NCBI GenBank assembly: GCA_938083505.1
Contig: CALKCF010000006.1
Span: forward strand, 119,047-183,046
DNA from: an uncultured archaeon
GTDB lineage: Archaea; Thermoproteota; Nitrososphaeria_A; Caldarchaeales; Wolframiiraptoraceae
DNA: 64,000 nt
Reading direction: 5' to 3'
In this document: in pieces, positions 1 to 46,867 of the stretch
Numbering within the stretch: position 1 is the stretch's first letter
Layout: the number at the start of each line of letters is the position of its first letter
Translations under genes and position numbers: made by a program
Notes under the pieces: model-generated
What the model was told of the DNA's origin: nothing
What the model saw: the letters and a program-made list of their open reading frames with translations, nothing else
Databases searched by the model: none

Positions 1-792
1 CCGTATCAAGTAATCTTACAGTCGATCAACTTTAGTGAGGCAAAGTTGGAGCGAAGCTTGAAAAAGCTTCATGAACTAAGACTCATCTGGAGTCCGAGAG
101 GCAAGAAGATAGCATACGTGTTAAACTACCTTGGTTTGGATGCTCTCGCCCTAAGAACGCTTTCACTAAAGGGAATAGTATCCGGACTGGGCATGTCCAT
201 AGGTGTGGGAAAAGAGGCTGACGTTTACGACGCGATAACCCGCGAAGGTAAGAGAGTTGCGGTGAAGTTCTTCAGGATCGGAAGGCCGAGCTTTAAAAAG
301 TACGAAAGGGTCAGAGAATCCTTGGTTAGGGTTCATAACTACCTAGAAGCGTCGATCAGGGCAGCTTACATGGAATTTAAAGCCCTGTTGATGCTTAAAG
401 GAAAGGTACCGGTTCCTTCACCACTCTATAGGACGAGGCACGTCGTAGTAACCGAGCTGTTTGAAGGGGTCGAGCTCGCTTTGCTTTCTAAACTCGAGAA
501 CGCCGAAGAGGTCTTGTTAAAGATAATCGACGCCATAAAGTCCGCTTACGAAGCTGGCGTAGTCCATAGGGACCTTAGCGCCTATAACGTCTTGGTTAAA
601 GCCGACGGGGGCATAATATTGATAGACTGGCCTCAATGGGTTGAAAAGAACCATCCACAAGCACCCCTTTACTTGGAAAGGGATGTTAAGAACATACTGA
701 GTTTTTTTGCCAGAAAATGGAATATTTGGAACATACCTCCGGAATATGAAAAGATTATTGACGAGCTCCTTGGAAAAAGTATTAATATATAA
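1..792 (+). CDS. RIO-type (Rio2-like) serine/threonine kinase, 5' truncated by window edge
   Basis: Frame is open to base 1; 'GVGKEADVYDA', 'VHRDLSAYNVLV', 'IIDWPQ' RIO kinase motifs. Confidence 0.88.
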   Translation, partial: PYQVILQSINFSEAKLERSLKKLHELRLIWSPRGKKIAYVLNYLGLDALALRTLSLKGIVSGLGMSIGVGKEADVYDAITREGKRVAVKFFRIGRPSFKKYERVRESLVRVHNYLEASIRAAYMEFKALLMLKGKVPVPSPLYRTRHVVVTELFEGVELALLSKLENAEEVLLKIIDAIKSAYEAGVVHRDLSAYNVLVKADGGIILIDWPQWVEKNHPQAPLYLERDVKNILSFFARKWNIWNIPPEYEKIIDELLGKSINI

Positions 793-26222: not shown

Positions 26223-29084
26223 GTGGGTGAGCTGACAAGCGAGAATGTATTGGAACTGTTGGCAAAGCCCGTCAGAGTAGCTTTTATCGAAAGGTTCAGA
26301 GAGCTGACCCCACCTCAGATCGAAAGCATACCAAAGATACTGGCGGGTAAAAACCTATTATTAATGGCGCCAACTGGTACTGGAAAGACTGAGGCTGCCC
26401 TTTTACCCATACTTAGTAACCTACTACAAAACCCTGGACTTCCAGGAATAAAGGCACTTTACATAACTCCGCTTCGTGCACTCAACCGGGACCTGTTGGA
26501 AAGGTTTGACTGGTGGGCCAAGAAGTTAGACATCAAAGTTTCTGTCAGGCATGGAGACACTGCGGTCGCGGAGAGAAGGACGCAAACACTTATCCCCCCA
26601 GACATACTGATAACGACCCCTGAGACGCTCCAAGCAATTCTGTGCGGAAAGGTCCTCAGGAAGCATTTGAAGGGAGTAAAGTGGGTCATCGTTGATGAGG
26701 TTCACGAGCTTGCTACAGATAAGAGAGGTGCACAACTTTCTATAGCGCTTGAGAGATTATTAGAAATAGTCGGTTCAGAGTTTCAGAGGATTGGCCTCTC
26801 AGCTACAATCGGCAGCCCGGAGATCGTAGCCAAATTCTTAGTTGGGCCCGGAAGGGGGTGCGAGATCGTAATGGTTCCAGTGGCTAAGGGTATGAAGATA
26901 GACGTCCTTTACCCTGTACCGGATGATGAGGATGTCATGCTGGCTGAGGAGCTTGCGATCTTGCCAGACGTGGCGTCAAGGCTTAGGACTATAAGGAGGC
27001 TTGTGGAGTTGCATGGTTCAACGCTGATATTCACGAATACGAGACCTTTGGCCGAGGTCTTGACTAACAGATTTAGGGCATGGGACGAGAGTTTCAGTGT
27101 GGGCATACATCATGGCTCACTGGCGAAGTCCGCAAGGATATCGACGGAGCAAGGCCTAAAGACCGGTGCGTTACTCGGAATAGTCTGCACATCGTCTCTA
27201 GAGCTCGGTATAGATGTAGGCAGGATAGACCTCTGCATACAGTACAACTCGCCTAGGGAAGTAACAAGACTCATACAGAGGGTCGGTAGGAGTGGCCACA
27301 GAATAGGAAAGATCGCGAAGGGTGTCATACTGGTTATGGACTCAGACGATGCTCTTGAGTCTATAGTTATAGCCAGAAGGGCGCTCATGGAAAAACTGGA
27401 GGAAGTCAGGATACCTACGAATTGTCTCGACGTACTAATGCATCAACTGGCTGGGCTCCTAATAGAGTACGGTCGTGTTAATGTAGAAGATGCTTTAAGG
27501 ATATTCAGTCGAGCATATGGTTTCTCAGAACTCGACAAGCATAAGCTCCTAAAGGTCCTTGAGCATATGAAGGGGTTAAATATTTGCGTGCTTACCGACG
27601 ACGGCTACTTTTGGAAACCTATAAACTCTAAACCCCTTTATGATTACTATTTCGGAAACCTTTCCATGATACCTGAAGAGAAACAGTACTTAGTCATTCA
27701 GGAGAACACGGGAGAGCCCGTAGGTATACTTGATGAGGAATTCGTCGCAGAGTATGGTGAGCCAGGAACGAGGTTCATATTAATTGGCAAAGTATGGGAG
27801 ATTCTCAGCACGCTTGGTGAAAAGATCTATGTCAGAAAGCTGGACGAGTATGAAGGTGCGGTGCCTTCATGGGTGGGCGACGAGATACCAGTACCTTACG
27901 AGGTGGCAGAAGAAGTTGGCATTATAAGAGCAGAGTACGAGGAGCGCCTTCGCAAAGGTGAGTCGCATGACACTATCTGTGCTCATATAGCAAAGAGGTA
28001 CGGTGTGTCGGAAGAGCTAATTTCGAGAAGTACATCCGAGATCAGGGCACATATTGACTCAGGGATACCCGTACCCACGAACAGGAGGATACTCGTGGAA
28101 AAGTCAGGAGAATACACCATAATACACATACATGGAGGGCTTAGGATAAACAGGACTTTAGCTAAAGCCATTTCGTTCTTAGTATCCGAGAGAATCGGGA
28201 TGCCACTCGCCGTCCAGCAAGACCCCTACAGAATCGTCATAAGATCGAAACACGTTAACCCAGAGCACATCGTTAATGCTTTAAAGAATTTATCTGAGGG
28301 GAGTTTCGGAGAAATATTAAGGAAAGCTATTGAGGGCTCAACGCTGTTCAGGAGAAGGTTAGTCCATGTTGTAAGGAAGATGGGTGTTGTCAGCAAAGAG
28401 GCAAGCATAGTCGACGTTAACCTTTCAAAAATAGTTGAAGTGTTAAAAGGCACGGTAGTTTACGATGAAGCAATGTCATATTGTTTGTTCCAAGATTTTG
28501 ATGAGCGTGGCGCATACGAACTTCTCCGCTCTATTCTTATGGGAAAATACGAGCTCGTAACATATTCATCACTCGATGCCGCGAGCCCATCGCCCTTGGC
28601 TTTACTCACGCTTAGGCGTTACCAGGAGGCCTATGAAGCAGTATCTTCGGACGGGATTGAAAGGCTAGTTTTGATGGCAGTAAGGGCCAGGCTTATGAAT
28701 GAAACGGGCGTCCTCATCTGTTCTGAGTGTTATCAGTACTTCGATAAGGTGACGGTCAAGGACGTTGACGAAAGACCCTCATGCCCTGTATGCGGCTCGA
28801 GAAAACTTGGTTTCCTAAAGAACGAGGTTGAGGATGTTTATGGCCTGATATCCAGAAAGGGCAAACCAATGAGTAGAAAGGAGAAAGAGTTGTTAAAAGA
28901 AATAGAAAGAAGTTCGGATTTGGTGGAGAAGTACGGGAAGACCGCCCTCGTGGCCCTATCAGGAAAGGGATTTACCGTGAATGATGCTGTCAAGATTCTG
29001 GAGAAAGAAGGGAGTTTAACGAATAGATTAATACAACACATAATAGAGGAGGAGAAGAAGAAATTGATTGCAACATTCAAATAG
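26223..29084 (+). CDS. Lhr-like DEAD/DEAH helicase
   Basis: 'MAPTGTGKTEAALLPIL', 'VDEVHEL', 'QRVGRSGHR', C-terminal Cys cluster; ends in TAG. Confidence 0.9.
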   Translation: MGELTSENVLELLAKPVRVAFIERFRELTPPQIESIPKILAGKNLLLMAPTGTGKTEAALLPILSNLLQNPGLPGIKALYITPLRALNRDLLERFDWWAKKLDIKVSVRHGDTAVAERRTQTLIPPDILITTPETLQAILCGKVLRKHLKGVKWVIVDEVHELATDKRGAQLSIALERLLEIVGSEFQRIGLSATIGSPEIVAKFLVGPGRGCEIVMVPVAKGMKIDVLYPVPDDEDVMLAEELAILPDVASRLRTIRRLVELHGSTLIFTNTRPLAEVLTNRFRAWDESFSVGIHHGSLAKSARISTEQGLKTGALLGIVCTSSLELGIDVGRIDLCIQYNSPREVTRLIQRVGRSGHRIGKIAKGVILVMDSDDALESIVIARRALMEKLEEVRIPTNCLDVLMHQLAGLLIEYGRVNVEDALRIFSRAYGFSELDKHKLLKVLEHMKGLNICVLTDDGYFWKPINSKPLYDYYFGNLSMIPEEKQYLVIQENTGEPVGILDEEFVAEYGEPGTRFILIGKVWEILSTLGEKIYVRKLDEYEGAVPSWVGDEIPVPYEVAEEVGIIRAEYEERLRKGESHDTICAHIAKRYGVSEELISRSTSEIRAHIDSGIPVPTNRRILVEKSGEYTIIHIHGGLRINRTLAKAISFLVSERIGMPLAVQQDPYRIVIRSKHVNPEHIVNALKNLSEGSFGEILRKAIEGSTLFRRRLVHVVRKMGVVSKEASIVDVNLSKIVEVLKGTVVYDEAMSYCLFQDFDERGAYELLRSILMGKYELVTYSSLDAASPSPLALLTLRRYQEAYEAVSSDGIERLVLMAVRARLMNETGVLICSECYQYFDKVTVKDVDERPSCPVCGSRKLGFLKNEVEDVYGLISRKGKPMSRKEKELLKEIERSSDLVEKYGKTALVALSGKGFTVNDAVKILEKEGSLTNRLIQHIIEEEKKKLIATFK

Positions 29085-29101: not shown

Positions 29102-29536
29102 ATGGGTAAGGAATATCCAAAGATGCCGGTTGTCGCCGTAGGTGCCTTAATACTTCAAGACCGCAACATACTTCTCGTTAGAAGGACGAACGAGCCCGGC
29201 AAGGGAAAGTGGTCGATCCCGGGCGGCACTGTCGAACTCGGAGAATCGTTGAAGGATGCTGTAGCCAGGGAAGTTTATGAGGAAACAGGTCTTGTGGTTG
29301 AGGTGTCCGAGTTGCTAGACATAATCGAAGTTATCAGGAGAGACGACGCTGGTAAAATAGTCTTCCATTATGTAATTCTCGATTACCTGGCTAAACCTGT
29401 TGGCGGTACGCTTAGGGCTGCATCCGACGCTTCTGACGTCATATGGGCATCTGTGGACGAGATCATGAATATGGAGATTACGGATAGCCTAAGAAAGATG
29501 CTTCGTAAGCTGAAAGAAAAAGGATTCTTTAGCTAG
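29102..29536 (+). CDS. NUDIX hydrolase
   Basis: Nudix box 'GGTVELGESLKDAVAREVYEETGL'; ends in TAG. Confidence 0.92.
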   Translation: MGKEYPKMPVVAVGALILQDRNILLVRRTNEPGKGKWSIPGGTVELGESLKDAVAREVYEETGLVVEVSELLDIIEVIRRDDAGKIVFHYVILDYLAKPVGGTLRAASDASDVIWASVDEIMNMEITDSLRKMLRKLKEKGFFS

Positions 29537-30162
29537 GCTTCCTCTTTTGTATTGTCCCTCCGTTGGTTTTGTTGGGGCGAGGCGATCTCCGTTATTGCCT
29601 TAAGTAACTCTTTTTCATCAACTTCTGCCAACGTCCTCCACCCGACTTTTATCATGTCATCCTCAAATTTCGTAAGGTATCCTTTCTTAGTAAATCGCTC
29701 TATAACAGCCTCTACCCTCTGTCTTGGAAACTTTATCTCCAGGAGCTCCACCAGCTCCTTCTCGGAAGCCTTACCACCCTTCGTGAATATGTAGGAGAAT
29801 ACTGCAGCTAAGATTGCGACGTCCTCTATGTTCCAACCTGCGGCCACTATATCAGCGACAGAGAGCGGTTCGGAGAGTGTGACGAAAAACCTAGCCTTAT
29901 CAAAGTCATCTCGAGCCGGGCTATCACTCGACAGTTGATCGAATACTATCTTTACTCTAAGACCTATGCTATTCAATCTATTGTTCAACGCATCGATTAT
30001 CTTGAGGTAATTCTTACCCAACCTCCTACGTAGTTCCCAACCCCTGACACCTGGAAGCTTATGACTTGAGAAGAGAAGCATGCTGGTGGCTATCATTAAC
30101 TTCTTAGCTGTTCGTTCGGTCTCACTTTTTCTGTCTTCCAAGATCCTTTGACACCTCCCCAC
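29533..30162 (-). CDS. Putative Nse3/MAGE-like KITE (tandem winged-helix) subunit of an SMC complex
   Basis: 'ILAAVFSYIFTKGGKASEKELVELL' and 'KKGYLTKFEDDMIKVGWRTLAEVDEKELLKAITEI' resemble MAGE WH-B; operon with an SMC ATPase. Confidence 0.55.
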   Translation of the reverse strand: MGRCQRILEDRKSETERTAKKLMIATSMLLFSSHKLPGVRGWELRRRLGKNYLKIIDALNNRLNSIGLRVKIVFDQLSSDSPARDDFDKARFFVTLSEPLSVADIVAAGWNIEDVAILAAVFSYIFTKGGKASEKELVELLEIKFPRQRVEAVIERFTKKGYLTKFEDDMIKVGWRTLAEVDEKELLKAITEIASPQQNQRRDNTKEEA

Positions 30163-30913
30163 CTCTTAATGAGACCACGAATGCTGCTACCTTCTCTCTC
30201 TTACGTTTTGAGAGAAACGGTATCACTTTTATCTCCCCAGTAAGGGGGTTCTTCTTTATCTCCGCTAAACCTTCACTGACGACGAAGCTGAGTACATAGG
30301 CTCTCCATACTGTCTCCTCAAAGGTGTCAGCCTTCACTATGGACCAATAATCTACTTCACCATCGCTTCCTGCCATCATGAGACAACTTTCGTGCATTCT
30401 CCTCACTTCCTCTTCTAACGTTACATCCTTCGCGTAACCAACCCCCTTTAAGATATGCAATGCATCCTCCTGAGTTGCCGGAAGTTTCTCATAAGCCCTA
30501 TCCTTAGGCGGCAACATTAAGAAATACTCTATCCCCTGCCTTAGCCTGTAAAGTGTAAGCTGTTCGGCTCTGACGATTGGTCTCCAGCTCCTAGCGAGTG
30601 CCGCAGCCAACTGCTTCGGTTCGGCAGAGGTTATCTTGAGCGACACCAATTGACTGTCTATGAAGAGCGACGAGGTCCTTTCCTTCAACCACTTTTGTTG
30701 TAGCGATATCAAAACGGCTATCTTATAAAGCGTCTCAGCATCGAGGATTATAATGTCCAAATCCTTATACTCTTCCAATATGCGTCTTAGCTTCATTAGG
30801 AGCTCCTTCACATTGACGGAGAATGGGTCCAGACCTTTATTCTCGATAGACTCGCAAAGCGCTATTATCCTCTCCAGCTCCTCTCTACTTATTGCCTTTT
30901 TTTCACGAGACAT
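30122..30913 (-). CDS. Putative Nse4-like kleisin
   Basis: C-terminal 'DTFEETVWRAYVLSFVVSEGLAEIKKNPLTGEIKVIPFL' resembles the Nse4 C-terminal domain; 41-bp overlap with the KITE gene. Confidence 0.5.
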   Translation of the reverse strand: MSREKKAISREELERIIALCESIENKGLDPFSVNVKELLMKLRRILEEYKDLDIIILDAETLYKIAVLISLQQKWLKERTSSLFIDSQLVSLKITSAEPKQLAAALARSWRPIVRAEQLTLYRLRQGIEYFLMLPPKDRAYEKLPATQEDALHILKGVGYAKDVTLEEEVRRMHESCLMMAGSDGEVDYWSIVKADTFEETVWRAYVLSFVVSEGLAEIKKNPLTGEIKVIPFLSKRKREKVAAFVVSLRGGEVSKDLGRQKK

Positions 30914-30919
30914 ACTGCA

Positions 30920-32707
30920 TTACCTTTCTACCACACCAACTGACGACTTTCCGCTGACGTTTTGGACGAGTATAACATTTGTATCATCGTCCACGTTTAT
31001 GTAACCGGGCGTTATTATTATGTACTGAACGTACGGATCGGCCTTGGCGGTTGCCGTCAACATCTTTATCATTCTTTCCCGATTAAGCGGATCTAAGTGG
31101 ACATCGAACTCATCGACAGCCCTGAACGGCGACTTAACGTACTTTTGCAGTGCAAGAAGGAAGGCGAGCGTCGCCACTATCCTCTCACCACCGCTTTGCG
31201 TATGGGAGTCTAAGAGTACGGGTTCGACGCCCCTGAAACCAACATAAAGGTCAAGAGATGCCTTCTCGATATCCTCTAAGTTACGTAGGGATATCTTACC
31301 ATTCGCATCAACAAACTTTAGTATTTGGATATAAGCCGGTTCGACCTCATCCACGAGCTCCCTTAGGAACCTCCTCCAAACTTCCTTTCTACGCTCAACT
31401 TCTTCCTTTGTCTTCTGTATGTTCTCAGATAACTGCTTGGCCTTCATCTCGACCTCGCTGTACTTAGCATCCGCTAAGATGTACATTTCTTCGGCGTTGG
31501 GTGTCACATTACCCAGGGAGCTTATTTGGATCTCTAGGATCTTCAAGTCCTCCTGGATTTCCGTCGGTTTTCTGCTGGTCTCGATTCGAGGCCCTTTCAG
31601 CTCAGCCTCAGACATCTGGGATGCGAGCTTAGTCTTCAGCTCGCTTAACTGGGACTTTAGTTTTCTCACCTCAGATTCCGTTAGATGTATCTTGAACCCT
31701 GCGACTCCTTCCTGTACCTTCTCCTTGATGAGTTCATCCATCAACCCATCTATCTTTTTTTCCAAATCGTCTAAAACTTCATACGTTTGAGATGTCGTCT
31801 CCCTTAATTGGCGCACTGTTTCACGAATCTTCTCGCGTAAAGCCCTGGCCCTTAACTCGCACTCCCTAGCCTCTTTGTCCAAACCCTCAATCTCTAAAAC
31901 AAGTGAAGCGATTTTATCCTCAACCCTCTTTACATCGTTCTCTAGTGCTATAACTTGAGACCATGCAAGCTCTCTTTCGAGTTCAAATCTATGCTCCTCA
32001 AACCTCCTGAGCTTTATCAGCTTCTCGTACTCTTCTTTCCAGTATTCAACGGTTGCCCTGGCTTCTTCTAGCGTCTTCTTGAAGTTCACTTCCTCTGTTA
32101 GTAACATGTTCAGCTTAGCCTCGGCATCCAATATCCTTTCCCTAAGTCTCGATGCGCCTACGGCATCCTCGACCATCTGGAGCTTCTCAATACTGCTTTT
32201 GGTGACGAACTGCTCTATCATGTTCTGGTGCATTATGATGAGCATATTATTGGGGTTAATGCCCACCTGCTTAAGCAAATGATCGACCTCGGCCTTTGTC
32301 ATGAATCTGTTGTTCACATAGTGCCAGTAGTCCCCATTCCTCTTCAGGTATCTTGCGACGGATACTGTGTCTGTATTTATCGTTTTGAATGCTCTTTTGC
32401 CGTTGTGAGCGCTATTGTCAAACACTACGGTGACCCTAGCAACATCCTTTCCGCGACGTATTAGGTCGCTTAGCCGCTCGCCCCTCTCTGTGTAAGTCTG
32501 ACCAAGGGCAACGGATATTCCAAGGAGTATTGAGGACTTTCCAGCACCGTTGGGTCCCATTATAACATTAAGGCCTGGTCTCAGCGGTATCCTGGAGTAT
32601 TCGTGGGACATGAAGTTCTCCAGGATTACCTCCTTTATGTGTGGTACAGACTTAGCCCTTTGCTTTAACTCGAGCCTTTCCGCAGACCGTTCGTCCGTAT
32701 CTTCCAC
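30920..32707 (-). CDS. Short SMC5/6-like ATPase without a recognisable hinge
   Basis: Walker A 'MGPNGAGKSS', signature 'THTQSGGERIVATLAFLLALQ'-type motif (read as DSHTQSGGERIVATLAFLLALQ), Walker B 'SPFRAVDEFDVHLD'. Confidence 0.75.
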   Translation of the reverse strand: MEDTDERSAERLELKQRAKSVPHIKEVILENFMSHEYSRIPLRPGLNVIMGPNGAGKSSILLGISVALGQTYTERGERLSDLIRRGKDVARVTVVFDNSAHNGKRAFKTINTDTVSVARYLKRNGDYWHYVNNRFMTKAEVDHLLKQVGINPNNMLIIMHQNMIEQFVTKSSIEKLQMVEDAVGASRLRERILDAEAKLNMLLTEEVNFKKTLEEARATVEYWKEEYEKLIKLRRFEEHRFELERELAWSQVIALENDVKRVEDKIASLVLEIEGLDKEARECELRARALREKIRETVRQLRETTSQTYEVLDDLEKKIDGLMDELIKEKVQEGVAGFKIHLTESEVRKLKSQLSELKTKLASQMSEAELKGPRIETSRKPTEIQEDLKILEIQISSLGNVTPNAEEMYILADAKYSEVEMKAKQLSENIQKTKEEVERRKEVWRRFLRELVDEVEPAYIQILKFVDANGKISLRNLEDIEKASLDLYVGFRGVEPVLLDSHTQSGGERIVATLAFLLALQKYVKSPFRAVDEFDVHLDPLNRERMIKMLTATAKADPYVQYIIITPGYINVDDDTNVILVQNVSGKSSVGVVER

Positions 32708-41982: not shown

Positions 41983-43485
41983 GGTCGGAATCGTTGTCGG
42001 TGAGGCGCGACCAGAGCGAATACAATTTCTCGCCAAAGACGTAGTTAGGGTTGGGGAATTTGTCACGGTAGATACTATAGACGGACGGGTCTTATACTTA
42101 GTGGAGTCCTCTATATTGGAAAGCAAACTCCTATCAAAAGTAGAGGATTATATAACTGCGATGGAGGCAAAGGAGGGCGAGTAAGGTCAATCCTAGAGAT
42201 ACTTGTAGGCGTTGTGTTGCACGAGCCGTTGGATTGGTCAAAGAGATCTCAAAGGGCATGTGCGTTTATCCTACGCTACCACCCGATCCAGGCTCGTTCG
42301 TATTTCTTGCCGAGGATGTGTTGCTGAAAGAAATATTTCATAAAAGTTCAGAGGAGTTTGTCGAAGTTGGAAGGTTATTGAGGAGGAGCGGTGTCAAAGT
42401 TTCTGTTAACTTAAATAAGGTTGCCTCCAGACATCTTGCGATATTGGCAACCACGGGCAAAGGAAAAGTCAAATCTTTTGGCACTAATAGCAAAAAGAAT
42501 AGCGGATAAGAACGGGACTATGATAATATTGGACTATCACGCAGAGTACTATGGCCTGAAGATCGAGAGGAAAGTAAAGCACGTGGCTCCGAAGATTAAC
42601 CCAAGATATCTGGATTCCGAGGAGCTGGCAGGGATGCTCGATATAAGGGGTGACGCCACAAGACAAAGGGACATACTCAGAAGGGCGTACACTGAAAATG
42701 TGGCAAGGTCGTCGACCTTCTGGGATGATTTGAAGAAGAACCTTAGAGACATGGCAGAAAACGAAAAAGACTTCCATATAAGGACTACGGCCAGTAGGGT
42801 CTTAGAGATTGTCGAGAGAAACCTCGCGATAAAAGGCAACATATTCGACACAGAAATAGATAGTCCGCTCAACGTTATAGATCCTAACAAGATAAACGTG
42901 CTAGACATTTCGAGTCTAACAGAAGAGCAAGCCCAGATAGTTGTGGCGCATTACCTTACAGAAATCCTGAACGATAGGAAAAACGCCACATTTGGAAGAA
43001 GCTCAAGATTCAGATCACCCGTAGTTGTAGCGGTTGAAGAGGCCCATACCTTCATACCATCAGACAAAAACGGCAGAAGTTCTAGGTGCGCCAGCGTGCT
43101 GGCAAGAATAGCAAGAGAAGGAAGAAAGTTCGGGGTCTCACTGATTTTGGTTTCACAGAGACCATCTAAGCTGAATGCGAATGTGGTGAGCCAAATGGGT
43201 AGCTTCGCCATATCCGGATTAACTCATCCGAGAGACCAGAGTTTCGTTATGGAAGTTACGGATGAGGTACCGAACGAGCTGAGCGCATCCTTACCGAGCC
43301 TCAACACTGGCGAGATGATACTAGCTGGCCAATGGGTAACCGTGCCAGCACTTGTTAAAGTGGACTTAGTCGAAGAAAAGCACATAGGTATGGACTTAGA
43401 TACTGTAAAGTTATGGAAGGAAACGTCTAGAGAGGCTGACGTGAAACATAAAAGGATATCAACGGAGGAACTCATCAAACTATGA
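41975..43485 (+). pseudogene. herA: HerA bipolar DNA helicase, interrupted by two apparent +1 frameshifts (near 42175 and 42462)
   Basis: Three overlapping ORFs reconstruct HerA: HAS barrel (41975), middle (42234), ATPase core (42421). Frame switches fall at GAGGGCGAGTAAG and within Walker A 'ATTGKGKSNL'. Confidence 0.85.
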
Positions 43486-44597
43486 TTATTGGGCACCTAT
43501 CCGACACACATCTCGGAGCTTATGCAGGAGAGGATGAGGAAAGGGAACAGGACTATTACGAGGCCTTCCGTGAAGCTATTGAGATTTTCGCAAAGGAACG
43601 CGTTGAGTTTGTCATACACTCAGGCGATATATTGCATTCTTTTAAACCGTACGGAACTGCCATGAGAGCCCTTGCGGAGGGTGTTAAAATGTTGAACGAA
43701 AAAGGCATAAGGTTCATCTATACCTTGGGTGATCATGACATACCTAAGGTTCCCAGCACACCTCATCCCTGCATCCTCGATATCTTGGGGCTTGCTAACT
43801 ATGTTGGAAGAGGGAGGCCGATAGTCGTAAGAGATATCATCGTGGTAGGTCTCTATAAGCATAAGAGAATTGAGAAGGAAAATTTGTGCAAGAAGCTCAA
43901 AGACATCGCTGAGGGAATAAAGCAGATTGACGGAAAGAGGAAGGTTCTTGTACTGCACCAAGGGATTACCGAGTTACACAGATCCGCGGGCGAGATATCT
44001 AAATACGATATTCCAACAGATTTTGATTATTACGCAATGGGACACTTTCACATGCCCTGCGAGTTTAGGCACGGCAACGGTTTAGGTTCATATCCAGGAA
44101 CGACGCACTGGGTAGACTGGAACGACCCAGAGTTCTCTTCCGTTAACTTAGTCGACCTTTCTGCCGATGAGCCGAAAATAAACAGAGTTAGGCTGGAGTC
44201 CGTGAGGCCAAGGATCGAGAGGCGCGTAAGACTAGAAGAGCTGGGAGCTCTTGTGCAGATGTTAGCGTCGCCTACGCATAAGCGCCATAAGAGGCCGTGT
44301 CTATTAATAACGGTGGAGGCTAGTAGACCTTTTGACCCTAAACCGTTTGAGGATTTACTGAGCCCGTCCTATATAGTCGCAATCGAACAAGTTCTGAGGG
44401 AAGTAGGTAGCGAAGTTATGAGAGAAGCTCCTGACATAGATGCTGAGCTTATGAGGTTGGCGGAGGTTGTGTTAGGAAGTAAGGAAAGGGCTGAGTTTGC
44501 ACTATCCGAGCTACTCGAGGCCCTTAACAGCGAAGATTGGAGGGGGAGTGTACTTGAGGTCGTCTGGAAGGTATTTAAGGATGGTAGGTTCAAATGA
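43482..44597 (+). CDS. mre11: Mre11 nuclease
   Basis: 'HLSDTHLG', 'HSGDILH', 'GDHD', 'MGHFHMP'. Confidence 0.93.
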   Translation: MIIGHLSDTHLGAYAGEDEEREQDYYEAFREAIEIFAKERVEFVIHSGDILHSFKPYGTAMRALAEGVKMLNEKGIRFIYTLGDHDIPKVPSTPHPCILDILGLANYVGRGRPIVVRDIIVVGLYKHKRIEKENLCKKLKDIAEGIKQIDGKRKVLVLHQGITELHRSAGEISKYDIPTDFDYYAMGHFHMPCEFRHGNGLGSYPGTTHWVDWNDPEFSSVNLVDLSADEPKINRVRLESVRPRIERRVRLEELGALVQMLASPTHKRHKRPCLLITVEASRPFDPKPFEDLLSPSYIVAIEQVLREVGSEVMREAPDIDAELMRLAEVVLGSKERAEFALSELLEALNSEDWRGSVLEVVWKVFKDGRFK

Positions 44598-46867
44598 TCA
44601 CCAAAGTTCTTCTCAAGAACTTTACGTCGCATAAGGATACGTTATTAGAGTTAGGACCCGGTCTTAACGTATTCGTAGGCAGAAACGGTTCTGGGAAGAC
44701 TTCCGTCTTAGATGGGATAACATACACACTCTTCGGCAAACATAGAAGGGGAAGCAATGTCAACATAGTCATGGACGGGGCACTAGCAGGTCACGTAGAA
44801 GTTGAGTTCACACTAGACGGTAAGAAGTACACGGTCGGCAGGACTTTCGACGTTCAGGGCAGGTTAGAGGATGCCTACTTAAGAGTTGATGGAAAACCTT
44901 TGGTTAGCGGTGAGAGAAAGAAGGATGACGCTGTAAGCAAGAGGATTGAGAAGATCCTACGTATGGGATATGAGAGGCTAAGAAGTGCCGTAATCATCCA
45001 GCAAGGAGAGATCGATAGGATACTTTCTTGGGAACCTAAGGAGATAAAGGAACTATTCGATGACCTATTAGGCCTCGACATTATGGAGAGTGCCTATGAA
45101 AGGATGAAGAGTGTGAGTAAAGATTTTGACGAGAGGATAAGGAAAGAGACGGGATATTCTGTCAACGACGTTGGTAACCTTAGCAAAAGAATCTCCGAAG
45201 ATGAGGCCGCTATAAGCAAGCTTAACGAAGAGCTGAGAGAGAATGAACGACAGCTTAATGAACTAAAGGAAGAGTACGAAGCGATAAAGGCTGAGTTAGA
45301 AAAGATGGAACGGTTCAGAAACACATACTATAATGTTTTATCTCAAATCAGCTTTATTAAGGGCATTGTTAAGAATTGGATAGCGAGGGAGAAAGAAGAG
45401 CTTGATAGATGTAAGTCAGCTTTAGAGCGGATAAAGATAAAGGATGATGTTGATGAGATAGTTGACCTGAAAGAGAAACTGAAAGAGGAAATCGTGAAGC
45501 TGGAGAAGGATATCGAACACTTGAGGAGAGAAATAGACAGTGTTAAGAAAGAAGGGGAGGAAGTGGATGAAAAACTGAAAGCGTTAGGCGAAGAAAGCTT
45601 TGAGGGAAGAGAGTTTTCTGAAATCAAGAAGGAGGTCGATCGAAGGACCATTGAACTTATTGATATGGCCGTGGAGCTTGGCAAATCGTTAACGAGTAGA
45701 GACGGAAGGGAAACTTCTCTGAGGGGAGCTATAGAGGGAAAGAAGAAGGAAATACTGGAGCTTTTTGATGAGTCCTACAGATCCGGGATCAGGAAGTACC
45801 TCGAAGACCTAAAGAACAGGAAGATTGGCATGAACGAAAGGTTGGAGAGGGCATTATCAAAGCTTGAATCATTAATGAGAGATTTGAATAATAAGAGGGG
45901 TGAATTGCAGCGAATCTTCAAATTGTATGGTAAGGATTTTGAGGATTTGCAAGAAGAAATTAGAGAGGCTCAAGGCATCCTGAAAGCTGCCAGCATCGAT
46001 AATATAAAGAAGTTTGACTCTAGGAAGGAAAGGCTAGAAAAGATTGAGAAAGCGCTTGTGTCAATATCAGAAGATGATCTTCCAGAACCTGAGTTGCTCT
46101 ACAACATAGCTGTGACAGATGACGTTATCCAAAAGATAAAGAGCGTTGAAGTTATGATGCCAGATGCCAAGAGCTTCAATAAGGAGCGGTACGAAAACAT
46201 AGCGAGGCGTCACGAGGAACTTCAGAGGAAGATCGGCGAGCTAGAGGGCAGTATCGAGAGGATAAGAAAAGACATCAAGGAGAGAGAGGATGAGCTTTTT
46301 AAGCTAAAAAGCATAATCAGCGTACTAGAGGATGCCAAGAAGTTCCGGGACTTCCTCGATGATATTAGGAATAAGGTATACTATAGAGATGGCCCTGTGC
46401 TCAAATCCCTAAGATCGTGGACTATCAGAGAAGTATCGAGGTTTGCCACAGAACATCTGGAATCGTTCAACATCAATGTAGACGGAATAAAGCTCGAGGA
46501 GGTTAGCGACGAGGTCGAGATCAAGTGCTACCAAAGAGGGAGGGAGGTTGATAGTGATAGGCTTAGCGGTGGTGAGAAGGTTGCTGTAGCCCTCGCCCTT
46601 AGGCTTGCTATCGGCGACATACTTGGCGCGAGAAGGTTAGGCTTTTTTATACTCGATGAGCCGACCGTGCACCTTGACTTCGAGAATAAAAGGAGGATTG
46701 CAAAAGTCTTTTCGGCGCTGAGCAAAGAGGTTAGGCAAGTAATAGTAATCACGCACGACGAAGAAGTTTTTGAGGAGGCAGAGGCTACGCTTTACAAGTT
46801 TGAAAGGAGGCCTGGAATGGGAGGGTACACCAAGGTTAATCTGGTAGGAAGGCCAGCGTGGGCATGA
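44594..46867 (+). CDS. rad50: Rad50 ATPase without a CXXC zinc hook
   Basis: 'VGRNGSGKTSVLDGI', 'DRLSGGEKVAVALALRLAI', 'FFILDEPTVHLD'; only two cysteines, no CXXC. Confidence 0.93.
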   Translation: MITKVLLKNFTSHKDTLLELGPGLNVFVGRNGSGKTSVLDGITYTLFGKHRRGSNVNIVMDGALAGHVEVEFTLDGKKYTVGRTFDVQGRLEDAYLRVDGKPLVSGERKKDDAVSKRIEKILRMGYERLRSAVIIQQGEIDRILSWEPKEIKELFDDLLGLDIMESAYERMKSVSKDFDERIRKETGYSVNDVGNLSKRISEDEAAISKLNEELRENERQLNELKEEYEAIKAELEKMERFRNTYYNVLSQISFIKGIVKNWIAREKEELDRCKSALERIKIKDDVDEIVDLKEKLKEEIVKLEKDIEHLRREIDSVKKEGEEVDEKLKALGEESFEGREFSEIKKEVDRRTIELIDMAVELGKSLTSRDGRETSLRGAIEGKKKEILELFDESYRSGIRKYLEDLKNRKIGMNERLERALSKLESLMRDLNNKRGELQRIFKLYGKDFEDLQEEIREAQGILKAASIDNIKKFDSRKERLEKIEKALVSISEDDLPEPELLYNIAVTDDVIQKIKSVEVMMPDAKSFNKERYENIARRHEELQRKIGELEGSIERIRKDIKEREDELFKLKSIISVLEDAKKFRDFLDDIRNKVYYRDGPVLKSLRSWTIREVSRFATEHLESFNINVDGIKLEEVSDEVEIKCYQRGREVDSDRLSGGEKVAVALALRLAIGDILGARRLGFFILDEPTVHLDFENKRRIAKVFSALSKEVRQVIVITHDEEVFEEAEATLYKFERRPGMGGYTKVNLVGRPAWA

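Follow-up and report, generated by a model that had tools for sequence, protein, structure and literature searches.

A hingeless archaeal SMC ATPase encoded beside Nse4-like kleisin and KITE partners, predicted to act as an Smc5/6-type DNA clamp

SMC proteins are commonly defined by their hinge, which is regarded as necessary for joining two SMCs and closing the ring that entraps DNA. A 64,000-nucleotide stretch of DNA from an uncultured Wolframiiraptoraceae archaeon, analysed here as a whole and called the window, encodes an SMC-like ATPase of only 595 aa, in which a preliminary description had recognised short coiled-coil arms and neither a normal hinge nor a CXXC hook. We asked whether this protein truly lacks a hinge and, if so, how it might act on DNA. 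The open reading frame is present as described (Table 1), and all ATPase motifs are intact. The protein matches Pfam SMC_N (E 7e-39) and carries a Walker A motif (GPNGAGKS, residue 51), a Q-loop (HQN, 160), a signature motif (QSGGER, 504) and a Walker B motif (SPFRAVDEFDVHLDP) with the catalytic glutamate at E533. We propose, with a probability of roughly 70%, that it is the motor subunit of an Smc5/6-type archaeal complex in which a hingeless SMC works with an Nse4-like kleisin and an Nse1/Nse3-like KITE protein, and which is predicted to act as an ATP-driven DNA clamp.

Table 1. Coordinates of the features discussed (nucleotide positions in the window unless a locus or residues are given)
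Feature	Position	Strand	Remarks
Hingeless SMC ATPase	30920..32707	minus	595 aa; GTG start
Nse4-like kleisin	30122..30913	minus	263 aa; starts 6 bases past the SMC stop
KITE (tandem winged-helix)	29533..30162	minus	209 aa; overlaps the kleisin gene by 41 bases
NUDIX gene	29102-29536		between the Lhr-type helicase and the operon
Lhr-type helicase	26223..29084	plus	Pfam DEAD, DEAD_assoc, WH_Lhr; convergent to the operon
Mre11	43482-44597		adjoins Rad50
Rad50	44594-46867	plus	757 aa
X226, window genome	L137:4230-4922	plus	away from the operon
X226, relative	L043:7827-8507
Asgard short-armed hinged SMC-kleisin-KITE operon	L126:3292-6935
Asgard short-armed hinged SMC-kleisin-KITE operon	L127:2451-6091
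Asgard short-armed hinged SMC-kleisin-KITE operon	L128:2615-6261
Asgard short-armed hinged SMC-kleisin-KITE operon	L129:1-3410
Hingeless SMC, head N-lobe	residues about 22-185		AlphaFold
Hingeless SMC, N-arm helix	residues 186-306		AlphaFold
Hingeless SMC, tip turn	residues 307-308		AlphaFold
Hingeless SMC, C-arm helix	residues 309-371		AlphaFold
Hingeless SMC, joint-like break	residues 372-404		AlphaFold
Hingeless SMC, helix after break	residues 405-464		AlphaFold
Hingeless SMC, head C-lobe	up to about residue 592		AlphaFold

At 595 aa the protein is roughly half as long as a canonical SMC, as would be expected if an assembly gap, a frameshift or gene decay had removed the middle of a normal one. 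We give this explanation practically no chance. Orthologues in five genomes of the same genus are each 595 aa long, 83-90% identical and share the same catalytic motifs, about 150 other genomes carry the gene with its operon intact, and the window genome encodes a separate canonical SMC of 1,161 aa. The missing segment or frameshift against which the preliminary description had cautioned is thus excluded, and an assembly error or pseudogene is ruled out by the orthologues. In a phylum-wide sample, 157 of 398 genomes, from 77 of the 163 genera covered, encode an orthologue of the hingeless SMC, and a further 21 of 28 Hadarchaeota genomes encode one; carriers among the matches listed include Calditenuaceae, Bathyarchaeota, Thermofilales, Methanomethylicota, Methanodesulfokora and Hadesarchaea. 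The gene is near-fixed within orders, and the order SMC-kleisin-KITE is kept in nearly every complete locus. Orthologue lengths range from about 555 to 760 aa, with the arms accounting for the variation. A genome search of the window genome returned only three SMC-type proteins over the cut-off, namely the 595-aa SMC, the canonical SMC and Rad50. In four genomes (G057, G058, G067 and G095) only about 10-15 kb separate the canonical SMC gene from the hingeless operon.

We next examined the absence of the hinge directly. Among 19 family members Pfam recognised SMC_N in all 19 and SMC_hinge in none; since the SMC_hinge model also fails to detect the canonical SMC encoded in the window genome, we did not take its silence alone as proof and built two hinge profiles of our own. 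The first, built from 13 canonical archaeal SMCs, recovered 13 of 13 with scores of 141-244 bits and gave 27 bits for a Lokiarchaeal SMC kept out of its training; about 66 short orthologues were compared with it, and none exceeded 6.4 bits. The second, trained on Asgard hinges, detected at E<0.02 most of the canonical SMCs that had been held out, and none of the short SMCs matched it at E<0.05. Neither profile searches nor Pfam revealed a hinge hidden in the longer orthologues (up to 756 aa). A hinge supplied in trans was likewise rejected: across the window genome and 24 relatives the hinge profile matched only canonical SMCs, save for one borderline match in a relative (E 0.0096) that is likely due to chance, and in the window genome only the canonical SMC bears a hinge. 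As to a hook, the 595-aa protein has a single cysteine and no CxxC, and none of the orthologues tested has a CxxC hook.

The predicted structure agrees with these searches. An AlphaFold model of the SMC alone, based on 19 sequences (mean pLDDT 87), consists of a head and a single coiled-coil hairpin, with no folded hinge or other folded domain at the arm tip. The arms, short as the preliminary description had it, span about 120 residues, or about 18 nm at 0.15 nm per residue, and their lowest pLDDT, about 59, falls at the tip. One detail of that description did not hold: the segment 'EGVAGFKIHLTESEVRKL', taken for the linker between the arms, comprises residues 333-350 and sits inside the C-arm helix of the model. 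The break in the second arm strand reads to us as an SMC joint, and the best Foldseek match of the model was an Smc head with joint (5xei), followed by cohesin and Smc5/6 heads. Two hinge profiles, Pfam and AlphaFold all agree, then, that the normal hinge is missing.

We then analysed the kleisin and KITE proteins that had been named as partners. A profile of the kleisin family matched yeast Nse4 (E 8e-5) and the human Nse4-type protein EID3 (E 3e-4) in the PDB ahead of ScpA (0.036); Pfam Nse4_C matched 14 of the 21 family members, with 8.6e-8 as the best value, and the kleisin gave no Pfam match to ScpA. The AlphaFold model of the KITE protein (pLDDT 84) has two winged-helix units, for which Foldseek ranked MAGE-G1/Nse3, MAGE-A4 and Nse1 best, followed by JetB and MukE. 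Weak Pfam matches pointed the same way, with MAGE at 2.8e-4 in the 209-aa protein itself and Nse1 at 1.2e-4 in other family members. The partners thus resemble Nse4 and Nse3/Nse1, respectively. Each of the Nse4 and KITE matches is modest taken singly; that SMC, kleisin and KITE all point to one complex is stronger evidence.

By sequence comparison, the SMC itself groups with Smc5/6 rather than with canonical SMCs. Against the PDB, the hingeless family profile scored highest with Smc6 (232 bits) and Smc5 (227), followed by prokaryotic Smc (181), Smc2 (149) and Smc3 (128), whereas the canonical SMCs of these genomes gave the reverse order (prokaryotic Smc 585, Smc2 425, Smc3 394, Smc5 110 and Smc6 108.5 bits). 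The C-terminal head of the 595-aa protein, searched as a single sequence, gave an E value of 8e-20 for human Smc5, compared with 3e-10 for the best match among prokaryotic Smc proteins. In a head-domain tree of 41 sequences and 344 columns, from which true ASRPs were left out as they failed the motif cut, the hingeless family was split from all others with support of 98.5/95, and the hingeless family, Smc5/6 and hinged Asgard SMCs together were split from canonical SMCs and Rad50 with support of 93/95; the exact position of yeast Smc5 and Smc6 was weakly placed (8/41).

A survey of 119 Asgard genomes yielded four loci for the hinged SMC, one of them truncated at a contig end. The SMCs, of about 831-840 aa, bear a hinge (Pfam E 2.8e-13, and hinge profiles) and are followed by kleisin and KITE genes akin to the partners in the hingeless operon (hhalign E 8.5e-10 and 4.9e-13). 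Searched alone against the PDB, the Asgard SMC scores higher with prokaryotic Smc than with Smc5/6. Since canonical SMCs, Smc5/6 and the Asgard relative are all hinged, the most parsimonious account is a hinged ancestor, and the hingeless lineage has probably lost the domain. Together with the hingeless operon, its hinged Asgard counterpart makes a ready pair for separating ring-dependent from clamped-head functions.

Among the neighbouring genes, a conserved protein of about 230 aa, X226, divergently adjoins the hingeless SMC gene in about 18 loci and matched nothing in Pfam or the PDB, nor the hinge profile. Of 101 genomes, 70 encode the hingeless SMC, and 67 of these also have X226; among the other 31, X226 occurs in 5, all of them incomplete genomes (72-85%). 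Genome relatedness inflates this association. X226 is a candidate extra component of the complex. In 14 loci, the window included, the Lhr-type helicase gene and the operon are transcribed towards each other, and the two may be functionally linked. In five loci (L043, L044, L045, L070 and L080) a eukaryote-like topoisomerase IB gene lies divergently upstream of the hingeless SMC gene. Elsewhere in the window, Rad50 has two cysteines, at 273 and 645, and no CxxC zinc hook; being short as well, the Rad50 of this genome may likewise be without the device by which Rad50 usually dimerises.

How could an SMC without a hinge act? With the hinge missing and no folded mini-hinge at the tip, the heads, kleisin and KITE are the best remaining route to dimerisation. 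Two SMC copies would associate as a homodimer by ATP-dependent head engagement, the kleisin would link the two copies by binding one at its neck and its partner at the cap, and the KITE protein would bind both kleisin and DNA. Because the compartment between the SMC arms cannot close as it does in canonical complexes, the likely output is DNA clamping, and the outcome would be an ATP-driven clamp gripping DNA on top of the heads instead of a hinge-closed ring. Smc5/6 functions in repair and recombination. By homology and from the helicase neighbour, the archaeal complex may likewise clamp DNA in repair or recombination, while the canonical SMC of the same genome would organise the chromosome. 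A conserved natural SMC complex without a hinge separates functions that require a ring from those of clamped heads.

Two other readings were weighed against this clamp. The hairpin tips could themselves form a minimal hinge, so that two SMCs pair via their coiled-coil ends and the ring still closes; pairing of this kind has been proposed for RecN. The arms do end in a hairpin whose tip is the part of the arm modelled with the lowest confidence in the monomer, and orthologues with longer or shorter arms have no hinge at the tip either, both of which are compatible with tip pairing; yet the alignments show no evident conserved tip sequence and no member tested has a CxxC hook, and we regard this reading as unlikely. 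Still more improbable, in our judgement, is that the protein is a short-armed SMC-like defence ATPase akin to Lamassu LmuB or Wadjet. The PADLOC LmuB model does match the SMC (E 5e-22), its length is similar to that of LmuB, and Smc5/6 and Wadjet both target extrachromosomal DNA (PMC10586767). However, the operon encodes a kleisin and a KITE protein instead of Lamassu partners, and neither has a PADLOC match, as the JetA and JetB partners of Wadjet would; the conserved neighbours identified include no JetD-like gene, as Wadjet (JetABCD) would have, and no nuclease or Toprim gene; and near-fixed presence within orders resembles that of a housekeeping gene.

Beyond the predicted clamp, we tentatively advance, at somewhat below even odds, a broader scenario. 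A complete and working SMC-kleisin-KITE machine of Smc5/6 ancestry would act on DNA without an SMC ring, its hinge having disappeared in a single event in the common ancestor of a wide range of archaea; Asgard archaea would have kept a hinged version from or near which eukaryotic Smc5/6 arose, and X226 would be a fourth component.

Yoshinaga and Inagaki (2021) are reportedly the source of an 'SMC5/6-related' clade of archaeal SMCs. Yoshinaga et al. (2022; PMC9389158) use this clade, a review (PMC10003631) also covers archaeal SMCs of this type, and the clade probably includes the hingeless family; where the 2022 paper treats it, no mention is made of a lost hinge or of an operon with kleisin and KITE genes. 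A literature search, with the 2021 source and preprints outside its scope, returned no report of archaeal SMCs that lack the hinge, of the operon with Nse4-like and KITE partners, of its hinged Asgard counterpart or of X226, and priority is therefore uncertain.

Among known systems, ASRPs (coalescin, Sph) are also archaeal SMC-like proteins of about 600 aa, most of which, according to the same 2022 paper, bear a zinc hook (PMC9389158). The 595-aa SMC is ruled out as an ASRP or coalescin by its score of 73 bits against the ASRP model (cut-off 300) and by its missing CxxC hook. Many relatives encode proteins of roughly 690-720 aa (L102-L111) that match the ASRP model well below the cut-off, and the one from L107 groups with Rad50 in the head-domain tree. 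SMCL-1 of C. elegans is SMC-derived and has no hinge (PMC5373644), but it also lacks the coils and the catalytic glutamate, both of which the hingeless archaeal SMC keeps. Canonical archaeal Smc-ScpA, reported without a KITE protein (PMC7055376), shares an SMC head and a kleisin with the hingeless complex, whereas the hinge, long arms and ScpA kleisin of canonical Smc-ScpA(B) have no counterpart in it. The closest likeness is to eukaryotic Smc5/6: the archaeal heads are nearest Smc6 and Smc5, the kleisin resembles Nse4, and the KITE fold resembles Nse3/MAGE and Nse1. The archaeal complex differs in having one SMC gene in place of a heterodimer, one KITE gene in place of two, and an SMC with short arms and no hinge. 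Its operon nevertheless encodes all three core subunits of an Smc5/6-type complex, and so bears on the origin of eukaryotic Smc5/6 and its Nse1/3/4 module.
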